From positions 1-39,973 of the forward strand of contig CANQVG010000016.1 of assembly GCA_947627235.1 (NCBI GenBank): a stretch of 39,973 bases of DNA, written 5' to 3'. Positions within the stretch are counted from its first letter, which is position 1. Each line of letters begins with the position of its first letter. Under the pieces are notes generated by a model. The model had not been told where the DNA came from. It saw nothing but the letters and a program-made list of their open reading frames with translations, and searched no databases. Below are positions 26,080 to 38,353 of the stretch, piece after piece. The stretch comes from an uncultured Clostridia bacterium (GTDB lineage: Bacteria; Bacillota; Clostridia; Oscillospirales; Ruminococcaceae). Made by a program: the position numbers and the translations under genes.

Positions 26080-27189
26080 ATGAGTGAAAAGAAATTTACC
26101 ATTGACAGTCTGCTTGAAAGCGGAAAAGCCGCGGGCAAGCTTACTACCAAGGAGATAACCGAGGTCCTTGAGGAGATGGACTACGACGTCGAGCAGATAG
26201 ACAGCTTTTATGACGCCTGCGCGGCCAACGGTATCGAAATAATTGACGACATCGTTATGGAGACGGAAAACCTCGACGAGCTTATAGGACTTGACGAGCC
26301 CATCTTAGACGGAGAACACGAGCTTGACGACGAGATTGACCCGACTATGTCCGATGCCATAGCGATAGATGACCCCGTCAAAATCTATCTTAAAGAAATA
26401 GGACGCGTGCCGCTGCTGACTCCGGAGGAGGAAATCGAGCTTGCGCAAAAGATGAAAGACGGCGACAAGGACGCCAAAAAGCGGCTTGCAGAGGCTAACC
26501 TCAGGCTTGTCGTTTCAATCGCAAAGCGCTACGGCGGCAGAGGTATGAGCTTTTTGGACCTGATTCAGGAGGGAAACCTCGGACTTATCAAGGCGGTGGA
26601 AAAGTTCGACTATACCAAGGGTTTCAAATTCTCCACCTATGCGACTTGGTGGATACGCCAGTCGATAACCCGGGCGATAGCCGATCAGGCGCGCACCATA
26701 CGCATACCCGTCCATATGGTTGAAACAATAACCAAAGTCAAAAAAACCTCCTCGCAGCTACTGCACCAGAACGGCCGCGACCCCTCTCCCGACGAGATAG
26801 CCCGCGAGCTTGATATGCCGGTTGAGCGCGTGAGAGAGATCTTACGAATTGCGCAGGACCCGGTTTCGCTTGAAACGCCAATCGGTGAGGAGGAAGACAG
26901 TCACCTCGGCGACTTCATTCCCGACGAAAACGCCCCCGAACCCACCGAAGCGGCGTCGTTGGTTCTGCTCAAGGAACAGATAAATCAGGTGCTTTCTACA
27001 CTTACAGACCGTGAGGAAAAGGTTCTTCGCCTGAGATTCGGTCTCGAAGACGGCAGGAGCCGCACCCTCGAAGAAGTCGGGCAGATGTTCAACGTCACCC
27101 GTGAACGCATCCGCCAGATAGAGGCAAAGGCGCTGAGAAAGCTCAGGCACCCGAACCGCTCTAACAAGGTCAAGGACTTCATAGACTGA
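26080..27189 (+). CDS. rpoD: Primary sigma factor RpoD/SigA
   Basis: This is the housekeeping sigma factor that directs RNA polymerase to TTGACA/TATAAT promoters like those across this window. It has 369 residues, typical of Gram-positive SigA with no long non-conserved insert. Region 1.1 is residues 1-80 (acidic). Region 1.2 includes [17 protein letters not shown]. Region 2 has [25 protein letters not shown] and [17 protein letters not shown]. Region 3 and region 4.2 follow, the latter with [23 protein letters not shown] is CGGAGG, downstream of dnaG as is usual. Confidence 0.97.
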
Positions 27190-34563: not shown

Positions 34564-34567
34564 ATAT

Positions 34568-34602
34568 TTTCCGATATGCCTCGGCATGTCGGAAATTTTT
34601 TT
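34568..34602 (+). terminator. Terminator of the response regulator-htrA operon
   Basis: TTTCCGATATGCC (34568-34580) pairs with GGCATGTCGGAAA (34583-34595) with one G-U pair, followed by seven T. The -35 motif of the sigma array begins at the next base. Confidence 0.9.
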
Positions 34603-34632
34603 GAAACCGAGTCCTTTTTTCGCACACTATAT
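34603..34632 (+). promoter_or_regulatory. Candidate ECF-type promoter, copy 1
   Basis: GAAACC (34603-34608), 18 nt, CTATAT (34627-34632). It lacks a TTGACA/TATAAT pair at normal spacing. The same two boxes at the same distance precede both sigma genes downstream. GAAAC-type -35 boxes are typical of ECF sigma factors. Confidence 0.65.
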
Positions 34633-34652
34633 AGGCGAAAGGAGGAGATAAT

Positions 34653-34886
34653 ATGAAATCATCCTACAGTGCCAAGGTACGCATAAGCGAATGCTGCGGC
34701 GATTATCTCTCAAGCTATTTATTCTCAGACGGACAGCCCTCCGAAGATTTGAGCTTTTACATTCCTCCGAGGCTCCCCGCCGCTCCCGCAGAGAGAAAGC
34801 CGCGCGGAAACTTCCCCGCAAATGTCTTCGGGATTGCGATTTCGAGGTCTGCCTCCGCGTTCCGAAAAATTTTTAAAATTTTTTGA
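34653..34886 (+). pseudogene. Truncated relic of the downstream sigma factors
   Basis: An intact 77-codon ORF with a perfect GAAAGGAGGAG ribosome binding site aligns to the first part of the sigma paralogues. ISECCGDYLSS matches IHEYCSDYLSK, EDLSFYI matches EDLSSDI, and NFPANVFGIA matches NFSAWVFKIA. About six to eight residues of the first sigma helix are missing, and the sequence stops inside region 2, so region 4 and the extension are lost. Promoter and leader are the same as those of the next gene, so it was made by tandem duplication and decay. It might still be translated; a dominant-negative sigma fragment is possible but unsupported. Confidence 0.7.
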
Positions 34887-34914
34887 AACCGAATTTATTT
34901 TCCACACACTATAT
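34885..34914 (+). promoter_or_regulatory. Candidate ECF-type promoter, copy 2
   Basis: GAAACC (34885-34890), 18 nt, CTATAT (34909-34914). From TTTTGAAACCGA through the ribosome binding site this closely repeats the sequence at copy 1. It lies 20 nt before the first full-length sigma gene. Confidence 0.7.
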
Positions 34915-34934
34915 AGACGAAAGGAGGAGATAAG

Positions 34935-36554
34935 ATGAACGCAGCAGCCTGCACCGCAGAGGTTCTGATACACGAGTATTGCAGCGATTACCTCTCAAAG
35001 CTCTTTTACTTCTGCCTTAAAAAGACCGGCAGCCCAACCGAAGCAGAAGACCTCAGCTCCGACATTTCGTTGCAGATTCTCGCAGCCCTCAAAAAAGGGA
35101 CGGTGCCCGAGAATTTTTCCGCGTGGGTATTCAAAATAGCGAAAAACCGCTACCGTCTCTGGGCGATAGCAAAGCACAGGGCATCGGAGCTTTATGACAC
35201 CGACGCCGAAACCGACTCCGTTCCCGACGATACTCGAGGCGTCGAGGACGAGCTGATTCTCGGCGAAGACATAAAACTTCTGAGACGTGAGCTTGCGTTT
35301 ATCTCAAGCGACTACCGCGATATACTCGTAGCCTTCTACATAGACGACAGAAGCGTAAAGGATATAGCGCAATCGCTCGATCTCCCCGAAGGCACCGTGA
35401 AGACAAAGCTCTTCCGCGCCAGAAAATTATTGAAAGAAGGTATAAATATGGCAAGAGAATTCGGACCTAAAAGCTATAAGCCCGAGGAAGTGAGCTTCAT
35501 TGCAAGCGGCAATCAGCCGTCGGGACTGCCCTGGTCGGCGGTTCAGACAATGTTTGCAAGGAACGTCCTTTTGGAGGCTTCGGACAACCCCGCGACCTTA
35601 GGGGAGCTTTCCATCGCCCTCGGCATCGCCTCGCCCTATATGGAGGAGGAAGCGGAGCGCCTTGTTGCGGCTACACTCCTCAAAAAGATAGGCAACAAAT
35701 ACGTTACCAACTTCCCGATAGTCTCCGCCGAGACCCATAAAAAGGCTTTCGATATAAAGCTTGAGGTCTCTCCGAAGCGTGCGGAGCTCATCGACAAAAT
35801 CGCCGAAGACCTTATCCCCGAGATACGCAGGCGTTTCGTGCGCTCCGACAGGATAACCGACGAAGATATCAAGTGGTGGGCGGTCTGCGAATGTTCGACC
35901 CTCGCGGAAAAGGCTTACGTAGGACAGCCTGCGCTCGTCCGCGAAAACGGCGAGAGCTGGAGCTTTTACGGCTTTGAAGACACCGACTTCTACGACCCGT
36001 TCGTGAGCCTCAACGGCTTCGCGGGCGATGCGTCCGGCAGAGATCTTTCAGCCTTTGTTCCTCACGAATACAACGTTGCGAATTATTGGAGCGAACTTGG
36101 CAAACATTCAGACGCTATCCCGTCGGTCATCGGGATAATTAAGAGCGGCAAAACCTACGGCAGCCTTTCCGAAGCGGAAAAGAAGTTTGTCGCCGACCTG
36201 AAAATGCTCGTCCACGTCGGCGAAGACGGCAAGATAGTCCCCGACGTGCTTTGGATTCCCGACGTGCTTTGGATAGAGGGCGGCGACAGCGTATGCTTCG
36301 AGCTTTTCAATTCTCACCCGCTATTCAAGGAGCTTTTGAAGCTCGACAGCGAGCTTTATAACAGGCTGCTTGAGACAGTCCGCGCCGAAAGCAACTCTCT
36401 CGTTAAGGAGCAGCTCAACGGCGTTGCCGGTATTCTTTCTCATATGCGCGGGCTGACGGTTCGCGAAGAGGTGAACGCGGGGCGGCTCAAAGTCCCCGAA
36501 GACGCATACAACTCGGTCTGCACGCTGGCGTTCTACTGCGGCGCATCAGACTGA
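34935..36554 (+). CDS. ECF-like sigma factor with winged-helix and large C-terminal extension, copy A
   Basis: The protein has 539 residues, about three times an ordinary ECF sigma factor. Region 2 is at about 10-80 (AEDLSSDISLQIL, FSAWVFKIAKNRYR). Region 4 is at about 118-168 (SSDYRDILVAFYIDDRSVKDIAQSLDLPEGTVK, then KLFRARKLLKEG). MAREFGPKSYKPEEVSF follows at 172-188, then a probable winged helix at 200-262 (LGELSIALGIASPYMEEEAERLVAATLLKK). About 275 unrecognised residues complete it. The extension probably senses a signal or controls the sigma part; that is inference. No anti-sigma gene is adjacent. Met172 has its own good ribosome binding site. The paralogue downstream has the same length. 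Confidence 0.85.
   Translation: MNAAACTAEVLIHEYCSDYLSKLFYFCLKKTGSPTEAEDLSSDISLQILAALKKGTVPENFSAWVFKIAKNRYRLWAIAKHRASELYDTDAETDSVPDDTRGVEDELILGEDIKLLRRELAFISSDYRDILVAFYIDDRSVKDIAQSLDLPEGTVKTKLFRARKLLKEGINMAREFGPKSYKPEEVSFIASGNQPSGLPWSAVQTMFARNVLLEASDNPATLGELSIALGIASPYMEEEAERLVAATLLKKIGNKYVTNFPIVSAETHKKAFDIKLEVSPKRAELIDKIAEDLIPEIRRRFVRSDRITDEDIKWWAVCECSTLAEKAYVGQPALVRENGESWSFYGFEDTDFYDPFVSLNGFAGDASGRDLSAFVPHEYNVANYWSELGKHSDAIPSVIGIIKSGKTYGSLSEAEKKFVADLKMLVHVGEDGKIVPDVLWIPDVLWIEGGDSVCFELFNSHPLFKELLKLDSELYNRLLETVRAESNSLVKEQLNGVAGILSHMRGLTVREEVNAGRLKVPEDAYNSVCTLAFYCGASD
36240..36275 (+). repeat. In-frame 18-bp tandem duplication within sigma copy A
   Basis: CCCGACGTGCTTTGGATT is followed by the same 18 bases with one change (final T to A), giving PDVLWI twice. 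The paralogue has a single PDILVF there, so it is a recent slip or small duplication in copy A. Confidence 0.85.
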
Positions 36555-36571
36555 CCTAAATTCTCCACACT

Positions 36572-36603
36572 GCTCTGCCCTCCTTATCGGAGGGCAGAGC
36601 TTT
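36572..36603 (+). terminator. Hairpin terminator after sigma copy A
   Basis: GCTCTGCCCTCC (36572-36583) pairs perfectly with GGAGGGCAGAGC (36589-36600), followed only by TTTCC, so the T-run is weak. Confidence 0.7.
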
Positions 36604-36648
36604 CCGCATAAAAACGCCGCGCTCCTCAAAATAATTTTCCTTTTTAAT

Positions 36649-36678
36649 GCAACCTTTTCTTTCAGTCACCGACTATAT
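36649..36678 (+). promoter_or_regulatory. Candidate ECF-type promoter, copy 3
   Basis: GCAACC (36649-36654), 18 nt, CTATAT (36673-36678). It has the same architecture as copies 1 and 2, although the sequence between the boxes is different, which argues that the boxes and spacing are under selection. Confidence 0.6.
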
Positions 36679-36699
36679 TATCGAAAGGAGATGAAAAGC

Positions 36700-38319
36700 G
36701 TGAGAGAAAACAAAACCGTCCTCGCACCGTCCAACGGACTCATTCACGAATACTGCCGTGATTATATGGAGAAGGTCTTTTATTTCTGTCTCAAAAAGAC
36801 CGGCTGCCCCTCCGCCGCCGAGGAACTATGCTCCGACATTTCGCTCGCGGTCATAGCGGCACTCAGAAAGGGCGTCCGCCCCGAAAGCTTTGCGGCGTGG
36901 GTATGGCAGGTGGCGCGCAACCGCCATGCCGACTATGCCGAGAGCCGCAGGAGATCCCGCGAACGCTCGGCAGGCGAAGACATTTCGGAATATGAGCTTG
37001 AAGACGGCTCGGAACACTTCGAAGACAGGCTGATAAGAGAGGAAGAGCTAAGGCTCATAAGACGCGAGCTGGCGTTCATATCCTCCGACTACCGCGATAT
37101 CCTTACGGCGTTTTATATCGAAGACCGCTCTTTAAAGGACATCTCGCGCTCTTTGAATCTCCCCGAAAACACGGTTAAGTCGAGGCTTTTCCGTGCAAGA
37201 AAAATACTGAAAGAAGGAATGAATATGGCAAGAGAATTCGGACCGAAAAGCTATAAGCCCGAGGAAGTGAGCTTCAACGGCAGCGGGTGGTTCCCCGCGA
37301 ACAATTCGCCGTTTGACGAGGTTAAAAAGAAGATACCGAAAAACATTCTCCTTGAAGCCTCAAACAACCCCGAGACCGCCGAGGAACTCGCAATAGCGCT
37401 CGGCGTCGCGATGCCCTATATGGAGGATGAAATAGACGGACTCATACGCACGACTCTGCTCAAAAAGGTAGGCGGCAAGTACATCACAAATATCCCCATT
37501 CTCTCCCGCGATATCCAGAAAAAGCTCTATGACGTTCAGCTCAGTCACTCCAACGAGGGAGCCGACCTTCTGCAAAGCGTTGCGGAATACGCCCTGCCGA
37601 AGATAAAGGCGCTCGGCTGCATAAGAAACGGCAGGATTTCCGACAACGAACTCCTCTGGTATATCGCCGACGGAATACTTCGCAATACGAAATACCTCTC
37701 GCCCGCACCGACTGTCCGCGAAAACGGCGAAAAATGGCAGCTCGTGGGCTTCGAGGAATACGACCGTCCCGCCTACGGAGGCATCAACAACCAAAGCACC
37801 GCGACCGATAAGATGGCGTTTGCGCGGCAGACCGTCTGCGGCTTCGGCGGAAGCGAAGACAATCCCGACGTTGAGTTTTCTATGGGTTCGATAACCCTTC
37901 TTGCCGACGTCATAAAAAACGGCAGAAAGGTCTCGGATTTTTCGGAGAGCGAAAAGCTCCTCTGGAAAAACGTCGAGGGAGTATATGCCCACACCGAGTC
38001 CGACGGCAGCGTTACGCCGGACATACTCGTATTCGCGGGGAAAATTTCTTCCGACTATATGCCGCAGGTCTGCGCGGATATCTTTAAGTCCCACCCCGAT
38101 TTTGAAGAGCTCAAGCAGCTTTGCAAAGAGGTTCGGGAAGAGCTCGTCGAAATTCTCAGAGAGGACAGCTCCCCCGTTATAGCCGGCCAGATAGAGCTTA
38201 CCGCCGAAATGACCGACCGCTTCGGCGATATAATTCTTGAGGAGCTCGCCGAGCGCCGCACTCTAAGGCCGCTCACCGGCTCCGACCGCTATAAGGGAAC
38301 GAGCTGGATACTGGTTTAA
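36700..38319 (+). CDS. ECF-like sigma factor with winged-helix and large C-terminal extension, copy B
   Basis: The protein has 539 residues from GTG at 36700. The ATG at 36691 is in frame but directly touches the ribosome binding site GAAAGGAG, leaving no spacing. It is a paralogue of copy A over the full length. Region 2 is at about 14-84, region 4 at about 122-172 (SSDYRDILTAFYIEDRSLKDISRSLNLPENTVK), MAREFGPKSYKPEEVSF at 176-192, the winged-helix segment with AEELAIALGVAMPYMEDEIDGLIRTTLLKK at about 222-258, then the large extension. The extension is more diverged than the sigma part, as expected if the two copies respond to different signals (inference). Met176 also has a GAAAGAAGG site 7 nt before it. 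The tail YKGTSWILV differs from copy A. Confidence 0.85.
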   Translation: MRENKTVLAPSNGLIHEYCRDYMEKVFYFCLKKTGCPSAAEELCSDISLAVIAALRKGVRPESFAAWVWQVARNRHADYAESRRRSRERSAGEDISEYELEDGSEHFEDRLIREEELRLIRRELAFISSDYRDILTAFYIEDRSLKDISRSLNLPENTVKSRLFRARKILKEGMNMAREFGPKSYKPEEVSFNGSGWFPANNSPFDEVKKKIPKNILLEASNNPETAEELAIALGVAMPYMEDEIDGLIRTTLLKKVGGKYITNIPILSRDIQKKLYDVQLSHSNEGADLLQSVAEYALPKIKALGCIRNGRISDNELLWYIADGILRNTKYLSPAPTVRENGEKWQLVGFEEYDRPAYGGINNQSTATDKMAFARQTVCGFGGSEDNPDVEFSMGSITLLADVIKNGRKVSDFSESEKLLWKNVEGVYAHTESDGSVTPDILVFAGKISSDYMPQVCADIFKSHPDFEELKQLCKEVREELVEILREDSSPVIAGQIELTAEMTDRFGDIILEELAERRTLRPLTGSDRYKGTSWILV

Positions 38320-38323
38320 AAGC

Positions 38324-38353
38324 AAAAGCCCGATCTTTGCGATCGGGCTTTTT
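38324..38353. terminator. Bidirectional terminator between sigma copy B and the exchanger
   Basis: AAAAGCCCGATC (38324-38335) pairs with GATCGGGCTTTT (38341-38352), with A and T tracts at either end. Confidence 0.92.

Follow-up and report, generated by a model that had tools for sequence, protein, structure and literature searches.

Clostridial sigma factors with a fused winged helix, each probably reading a private promoter before its own gene

We analyzed a stretch of 39,973 nucleotides (nt) from an uncultured Clostridia bacterium of the Ruminococcaceae (assembly GCA_947627235.1, contig CANQVG010000016.1, positions 1 to 39,973; the whole stretch is referred to as the window), in which two adjacent genes, A1 and A2, encode sigma factors of the extracytoplasmic function (ECF) type. 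Judged from their sequences, the two proteins are members of a mainly clostridial ECF family whose proteins carry a long fused C-terminal part. Probably each sigma factor of this family reads its own private promoter through residues 156 and 157 and has a narrow set of targets. A1 and A2 would each have a promoter of their own, read by these two residues in the sigma4 helix of the encoded protein. Since A1 would serve the two GAAACC promoters, its own and that of a small open reading frame (ORF) upstream, and A2 only its own GCAACC promoter, the two loops would be insulated from each other. Each loop would be positive, and the fused C-terminal part would set its activity in place of an anti-sigma factor.

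Three promoter copies precede A1, A2, and a small ORF

The promoters, the genes behind them, and the codons of the two residues lie as follows.

34603..34632, + strand: promoter copy 1, GAAACC-N18-CTATAT, 5' of the small ORF (position weight matrix [PWM] score, 40.5)
34637..34645, + strand: GAAAGGAGG, a conserved GAAAG element doubling as the Shine-Dalgarno sequence; probable RNA start region (PWM positions 32 to 36, with AACC at 0)
34653..34886, + strand: small ORF of 77 codons, the start of which resembles a sigma factor N terminus
34885..34914, + strand: promoter copy 2, GAAACC-N18-CTATAT, 5' of A1 (PWM score, 38.1)
34935..36554, + strand: sigma gene A1, 539 amino acids (aa), with ECF sigma2 and sigma4, an ArsR-like winged helix (residues 196 to 262), a long helix, and a C-terminal part
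35400..35405, + strand: A1 codons for K156 and T157, the recognition-helix residues that covary with −35 bases
36649..36678, + strand: promoter copy 3, GCAACC-N18-CTATAT, 5' of A2 (PWM score, 17.9)
36683..36690, + strand: GAAAGGAG, element and Shine-Dalgarno sequence of A2 (from the sequence and the PWM)
36700..38319, + strand: sigma gene A2, 539 aa, with the GTG start chosen; there is another in-frame start, ATG, at 36691
37177..37182, + strand: A2 codons aligned with A1 K156 and T157, encoding K and S

An initial annotation of the region had described three copies of one promoter, G(A/C)AACC-N18-CTATAT, and the boxes are indeed exactly 18 nt apart at all three coordinates. Copies 1 and 2 are near-duplicates, with 12 of 18 bases in common in the spacer and 18 of 20 downstream. 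As had been claimed, copy 3 is not a plain duplicate: its spacer matches that of copy 1 at 8 of 18 bases and that of copy 2 at 7 of 18, while its −10 box is identical and its −35 box differs by one base (A/C). The ribosome binding sites lie nearer to the −10 box than the 9 to 15 nt originally given, with AGGAGG 7 nt on in copies 1 and 2 and AAGGAG 6 nt on in copy 3. Transcription would start about 5 to 8 nt past CTATAT, and the promoters appear to be of a non-sigma-A type. Throughout the genome to which the window belongs (G000; 1,652,659 bases in 37 contigs), GMAACC-N18-CTATAT had three matches, all in the window, and a reversed control had none. The wording G(A/C)AACC fits these three sites but misses the three paralogues whose −35 box, likewise 18 nt from the −10 box, is CTAACC, CTAACT, or CGAACC.

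The promoter is conserved before homologous sigma genes

Besides A1 and A2, three more family members were found in the same genome, on contigs C1, C6, and C2, with the C2 gene truncated by its contig end. All five are preceded by AAC(C/T)-N18-CTATA(C/T), with −35 boxes GAAACC for A1, GCAACC for A2, and CTAACC, CTAACT (C6), and CGAACC for the others. Among 23 sigma70 region 2 matches in this genome, the 17 nonfamily genes that were scored lack the promoter and reached at best 4.3; one more match starts where its contig does.

Screening 84,980 species, each represented by one genome, confirmed 125 relatives, the best 80 of which formed the homologue set. By their titles, these 80 come from Clostridia and other Firmicutes groups, apart from a few titles that give no group (two Candidatus names and one “bacterium”). 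The relatives include a homologue in the cultivated Clostridium tagluense (L114). The promoter model, allowing 17 or 18 nt between the boxes, scored above 16 in 66 of the 80 loci, compared with a mean of 0.0 of 80 in five dinucleotide-shuffled sets. The initial annotation had offered enrichment of the motif before homologous sigma genes as a point on which its reading could fail, and the motif proved to be enriched. A model-free search for exact AACC-N18-CTATA found 36 of the 80 upstream regions (shuffled mean, 0); at other spacings from 10 to 26 nt, there were three matches with N17, one with N13, one with N26, and none at the remainder. The relaxed pattern AA(C/T)(C/T/G)-N18-CTA(T/C) was present in 52 of 80 (shuffled mean, 1.2). 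The consensus reads AACC-N18-CTATAT followed by NNNYGAAAG, and the ribosome binding sites of A1 and A2 begin with this GAAAG. AAC stands in the −35 box of all five paralogues, and AAT and CAG variants occur in 14 of the 92 members with a promoter call that are described below.

Residues 156 and 157 covary with bases of the −35 box

A mutual information scan of 46 promoter positions against 539 residues was run on 48 of 60 aligned members; ten without a called site and two with weak sites were excluded, and the register was adjusted for three with 17-nt spacing. The highest-scoring pair joined the third base of AACC (the first C) to K156 with a score of 0.72, and the next pair scored 0.44. A larger set comprised 113 members, 92 of them with a promoter call (86 at 18 nt and 6 at 17 nt). 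Here, K or R at residue 156 went with C as the third base of AAC (78/78), T or M with T (13/13), and Q with G (1/1). Residue 157 was matched to the base before AAC: Y, F, Q, or K with T (44/44), R with G (6/6), W with C (8/8), A with C (5/5), T with A (12/13), and S with C (13/16, S occurring also with A once and with G twice). When members at least 90% identical were dropped, 80 remained and the table kept its shape, with 69/69, 10/10, and 1/1 for residue 156, 10/13 for S157 with C, and 9/10 for T157 with A. In leave-one-out prediction, the base before AAC was correctly inferred from residue 157 in 95% of cases (majority rule, 49%) and the third base of AAC from residue 156 in 99% (majority rule, 85%), in each case the best result among 330 columns.

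When the tree was computed with the recognition helix left out, changes numbered seven at residue 156 (K or not) and six at the base (C or not). Independent pairs on supported branches went the same way for residue 156 in four of five cases, with no difference in one and none opposite, which is too few for significance; with the base as first trait, four of four did so. For S, A, or W at residue 157 with C, a mean of 5.6 of 7 pairs went the same way and none the opposite way (sign test, median P of 0.03; range, 0.03 to 0.125). The other three codings of residue 157 were not significant, and the T-A coding has a few pairings going the opposite way. Among 23 further loci, 12 with a site were less than 85% identical to the earlier set. 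Ten of these had a readable helix, and all ten fit residue 157; in the other two, the translation stops before the helix, and the script scored them as misses (10/12). Where the site in the further loci was called without the −35 box, seven of seven also fit for residue 156.

In the crystal structure of Bacillus subtilis SigW described in PMC6713349, K170 contacts G'-31 and T171 contacts A-34 of GAAACCT. The spacing of SigW T168-x-K170-T171-R172-x-x-R175 agrees with that of T154-x-K156-T157-K158-x-x-R161 here, and K156 and T157 would therefore occupy the positions of K170 and T171. Because the −35 bases covary with helix residues at the SigW contacts, each promoter can be assigned to its own sigma factor with good confidence. 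The proposal that such a sigma factor recognizes its own promoter, made at the outset from the window, is strongly supported by this covariation together with the promoter found before the 66 homologues.

Two other arrangements would also fit the shared boxes. One master sigma factor could read all the promoters, the family genes being its targets rather than self-activators, and the pattern common to all five paralogues of the genome speaks for this. We regard it as very improbable: the −35 bases track the recognition helix of the sigma factor whose gene follows, and within this single genome the base before AAC varies in step with residue 157 (A, C, T, T, and G with T, S, F, Y, and R). The other arrangement, suggested in the initial annotation, is cross-activation of A1 and A2 as a linked switch. 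The same spacing, the same −10 box, a one-base difference in the −35 box, and the adjacency of the genes all speak for it, as do the three exceptions to S157 with C, and a single base difference need not abolish recognition. Against it, A1 combines T157 with GAAACC and A2 combines S157 with GCAACC, in line with the 12/13 and 13/16 of the family table, and a terminator-like hairpin lies between the genes. Cross-activation is hence improbable, and because residue 157 and the promoter base differ in step among the paralogues, private promoters are the better reading. Private promoters would make a clean case for the insulation of duplicated sigma factors, in which a change of one helix residue is matched by a change of one promoter base, as seen in several paralogues of one genome. 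With an 18-nt spacing, known contact residues, and private promoters, the family might furnish small orthogonal switches.

Few sites are found away from the family's own genes

Detectable output of the promoter type appears nearly confined to the family's own genes. In the own genome, AACCN{17,19}CTATA had 37 matches, compared with 29 in the control. Thirty of the 37 were scored, and the five with positive full scores precede A1, A2, the small ORF, and the C1 and C2 genes; C6, with CTAACT, falls outside this pattern. With the GAAAG element included, there were six exact sites: A1, A2, the small ORF, C1, C6, and a site at C8:15675. Allowing two mismatches added six sites, including C2, and the control also gave six.

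Across 197 genomes of the same bacterial family, the motif with GAARG had 18 matches in 11 genomes and none in the control. Thirty genomes have a family protein (a match at an E value of ≤1e-15); seven of these account for 14 of the motif matches, 13 of which are followed by a family gene, the small ORF, or a gene fragment. The other four, spread over the remaining 167 genomes, comprised three ORF-internal sites and one before a secreted-protein-like ORF. The core promoter without GAAAG had 43 matches in the 30 genomes, and the reversed control also had 43. By coordinates, 26 of these stand directly before family genes, two before the small ORF and the fragment, and 15 elsewhere. These 15 nonfamily sites do not rise above the control level, and there may be individual targets among them. 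Of the 13 that were read, five lie in no ORF of at least 130 aa on either strand, and four of these five (L203, L206, L218, and L227) have an ORF start within 300 nt, that at L203 being transporter-like. In 655 kb of flanks, only six other sites were found: those of L065 and L066, which precede a small ORF, those of L087, L088, and L103, which precede sigma-like ORFs, and one about 290 nt upstream of the L075 family gene.

The wider regulon that the initial annotation expected from a genome scan with 17- to 19-nt spacing was thus not found, the matches being close to control (37 versus 29 and 43 versus 43). ECF sigma factors usually have wider regulons, and the search patterns require a strong −10 box, so that a regulon with promoters too degenerate for these patterns is conceivable; the four intergenic sites near ORF starts and the conserved C8 site described next speak for it. 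Set against this are the positive scores, which fall to four family genes and the small ORF, and the scarcity of other sites in the flanks and in the 30 genomes. We consider a hidden regulon rather unlikely, though clearly less so than the two arrangements discussed above.

The site at C8:15675-15711 (L176) is an exact family-type site with −35 AAACT that lies between genes judged by eye to be DegV-like and M48-peptidase-like. Its boxes are kept in genomes G220 and G223 with a changed spacer (L236 and L237), making three genomes in all. No convincing ORF was found behind the site, and a search for a small RNA gave no Rfam match at the gathering score. The fold has a z score of −3.2, its strongest helix being a terminator-like hairpin. 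On the other strand, the conserved 3' block looks by eye like a ribosome binding site and gene start.

Several points weigh against private promoters with hardly any other target. The promoter model was scored on the 80 loci that also served to train it, 14 of these homologues do not exceed 16, and no site is present at L244, a 48% homologue among the 23 further loci. Site positions were chosen by a score that includes the −35 box, except in part of the further loci, which leaves the residue-base tables not fully independent, and the residue classes were fixed after the table was seen. The tree-corrected tests rest on few independent changes, with a median P below 0.05 in one of five codings. 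Two ORF-internal N17 sites in the own genome have promoter-part scores without GAAAG of 14.4 and 11.1, like those of A2 (9.6) and C2 (11.3). Finally, the conserved C8:15675 site without a gene means that a description as self-targeting only may be incomplete.

Domain architecture and comparison with known ECF groups

The proposal that A1 and A2 are ECF-like sigma factors was borne out, as group IV, by their sigma2 and sigma4 domains and by AAC in the −35 box. Pfam Sigma70_r2 and r4_2 are above the cutoff in both proteins and were each found at an E value of ≤0.01 in 60 of 60 aligned members. Among the 25 NCBIfam matches listed for each protein, of 69 for A1 and 67 for A2, TIGR02937 (general sigma70-ECF) was the sole model above the cutoff. 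A2 is 43% identical to A1 over 518 columns. Residues 196 to 262 of A1, which open the fused C-terminal part, have a winged-helix fold of the ArsR type; in a Foldseek search with the whole model, the first 50 matches were mainly sigma factors, with some winged-helix proteins further down. No SnoaL-like domain was found among the families listed for A1, A2, or the 60 members, the C-terminal part not having been folded alone.

No downstream family was shared by more than 3 of the 80 loci among ORFs of at least 90 aa on the downstream side. Five loci were too short and eight had no near ORF; in the other 67, a same-strand ORF lay within 60 nt in eight. An anti-sigma gene in the same operon is a hallmark of classical ECFs (PMC8103513). 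Here, terminator-like hairpins follow A1 and A2, the survey covered the downstream side, and the small ORF might be cotranscribed with A1. At L108 and L115, the homologue is followed by a long ORF, by eye ABC transporter-like, that overlaps it by 11 and 4 nt, respectively, counted from the first start codon.

The nearest parallel is ECF41, which provides a precedent for narrow targets: as described in PMC3426412, it too has a fused C-terminal regulatory part and no obvious anti-sigma partner, and its motif occurs essentially only before its own or one linked gene, with no wider regulon detected there. The ECF41 promoter differs, with −35 TGTCACA, −10 CGTC, and a spacer of 16 ± 1 nt in place of AACC, CTATAT, and 18 nt, and the ECF41 boxes were not found here. 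ECF41 has a SnoaL-like domain (PMC8999054) where this family has an ArsR-like winged helix, and a COE gene is often linked to it, whereas no downstream gene is conserved here. SigW shares −35 GAAACC, the K-T of the recognition helix, and the same two base contacts, but is held by a separate anti-sigma factor, RsiW (PMC6713349); its chain of 187 residues is without a C-terminal part such as A1 and A2 have. Table 2 of PMC8999054 lists ECF262 (model protein from Ruminococcus albus) and ECF264 (Saccharibacillus sacchari) under “others” as ECFs with regulatory extensions, the mechanism not being described there. The present family may be ECF262 and so may already be cataloged. Among the open-library results listed, we recognized no paper treating this sigma family.

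As described in PMC8103513, Todor et al. (2020) used autoregulated ECFs to match sigma residues with promoter bases, and about 55% of ECFs were judged autoregulated by a study cited there. Compared with that code, the matching is here traced within a single family and among the paralogues of one genome. Autoregulation of an ECF is thus ordinary; near-exclusive self-targeting, a fused winged helix, insulated paralogues, and the palindrome described next are less so.

A palindrome follows the −10 box in just under half of the called promoters

Of 94 called promoters, 43 have a palindrome past the −10 box, perfect over at least 10 bp in 40; shuffles gave means of 2.4 palindromes and 0.4 perfect ones, with maxima of 8 and 4. 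Without members at least 90% identical, it was present in 39 of 82 and perfect over 10 bp in 36. Its center lies 9 nt past the −10 box in 35 of the 43, and its letters vary while the symmetry is kept, as in GAAAGCTTTC, GAAGATCTTC, TGAATGCATTCA, TGTAAGCTTACA, CGAAAACGTTTTCG, and others. Bearers include the C1, C6, and C2 genes of the own genome, L107, many of L110 to L144, and others. The A1 and A2 promoters have no palindrome, with GAAAGGAG(G) at that place.

An operator would be the natural reading of such a palindrome, as ArsR-type proteins bind repeats of this kind. The idea that the winged helix reads it was tried on the 43 palindrome-bearing members and gained no support: covariation was not concentrated in residues 200 to 275, which took 7 of the top 25 pairs, 10 of 50, and 19 of 100, with 23% expected. 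A general operator was likewise set aside: YGAAAGCTTTCR occurs at six places in the genome, two of them before the C1 and C6 family genes, one intergenic (C2:1132), and three ORF-internal. In a one-protein circuit, the sigma factor's only substantial target would be its own gene, and the ArsR-like domain would bind the start-site palindrome in many subfamilies, making the protein activator and limiter at once; duplication with matched changes of residue 157 and the promoter base would then yield insulated copies. We put this forward as an unlikely, speculative scheme. What a sigma factor with hardly any target but itself does is the question that the family raises, and the winged helix with the palindrome offers a lead.

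The small ORF and neighboring features

The initial annotation took the small ORF for a relic of a sigma gene. Its sigma-like start stands: by tblastn, it resembles the sigma N terminus of the A1 homologue at L065 (E value, 2.6e-7). The relic reading is weakened, short of being refuted, by the same promoter and open frame in two other species (L065, 77 codons; L066, 73 codons). Start, ribosome binding site, and frame are intact in all three species (77, 77, and 73 codons), and the ratios of nonsynonymous to synonymous substitution rates (dN/dS) are 0.33, 0.62, and 0.36. In a neutral simulation against L065, aa identity as high as that observed arose in 9% of draws, which speaks for a decaying duplicate that merely retains its promoter, and together with the absence of a stop in 2.8%, which speaks against one. 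Genome G148 (L195/L196) offers a precedent for decay: the promoter is repeated 351 nt upstream of that of the sigma gene and is followed by an internal piece of a sigma gene, a true fragment. A decaying duplicate is therefore a serious possibility, if a somewhat doubtful one, and the comparisons weakly support a conserved small ORF under weak constraint. The small ORF ends in a TGA that overlaps the A1 −35 box (34884 to 34890); the ORF could be read together with A1, and RNA from promoter copy 1 may run on into A1.

The hairpins predicted by folding are as follows.

34568..34595, + strand: hairpin followed by a T-run, 3' of an HtrA-like protease gene (fold of 34564 to 34632)
36573..36601, + strand: strong terminator-like hairpin between A1 and A2
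38324..38352, + strand: terminator-like hairpin 3' of A2

The −35 box of promoter copy 1 directly adjoins the T-run behind the HtrA-like gene. A1 and the L065 gene are 91% identical in DNA sequence, with a synonymous divergence (dS) of 0.24, whereas the adjacent HtrA-like gene has a dS of 1.03 (the L065 HtrA stretch contains one stop); because of this difference, sigma genes may have been exchanged between this species and that of L065. Family copies at G222:C48 and G213:C14 each contain one in-frame TGA. Elsewhere in the window, positions 26485 to 26697 on the + strand encode region 2 of an apparent primary sigma factor gene.

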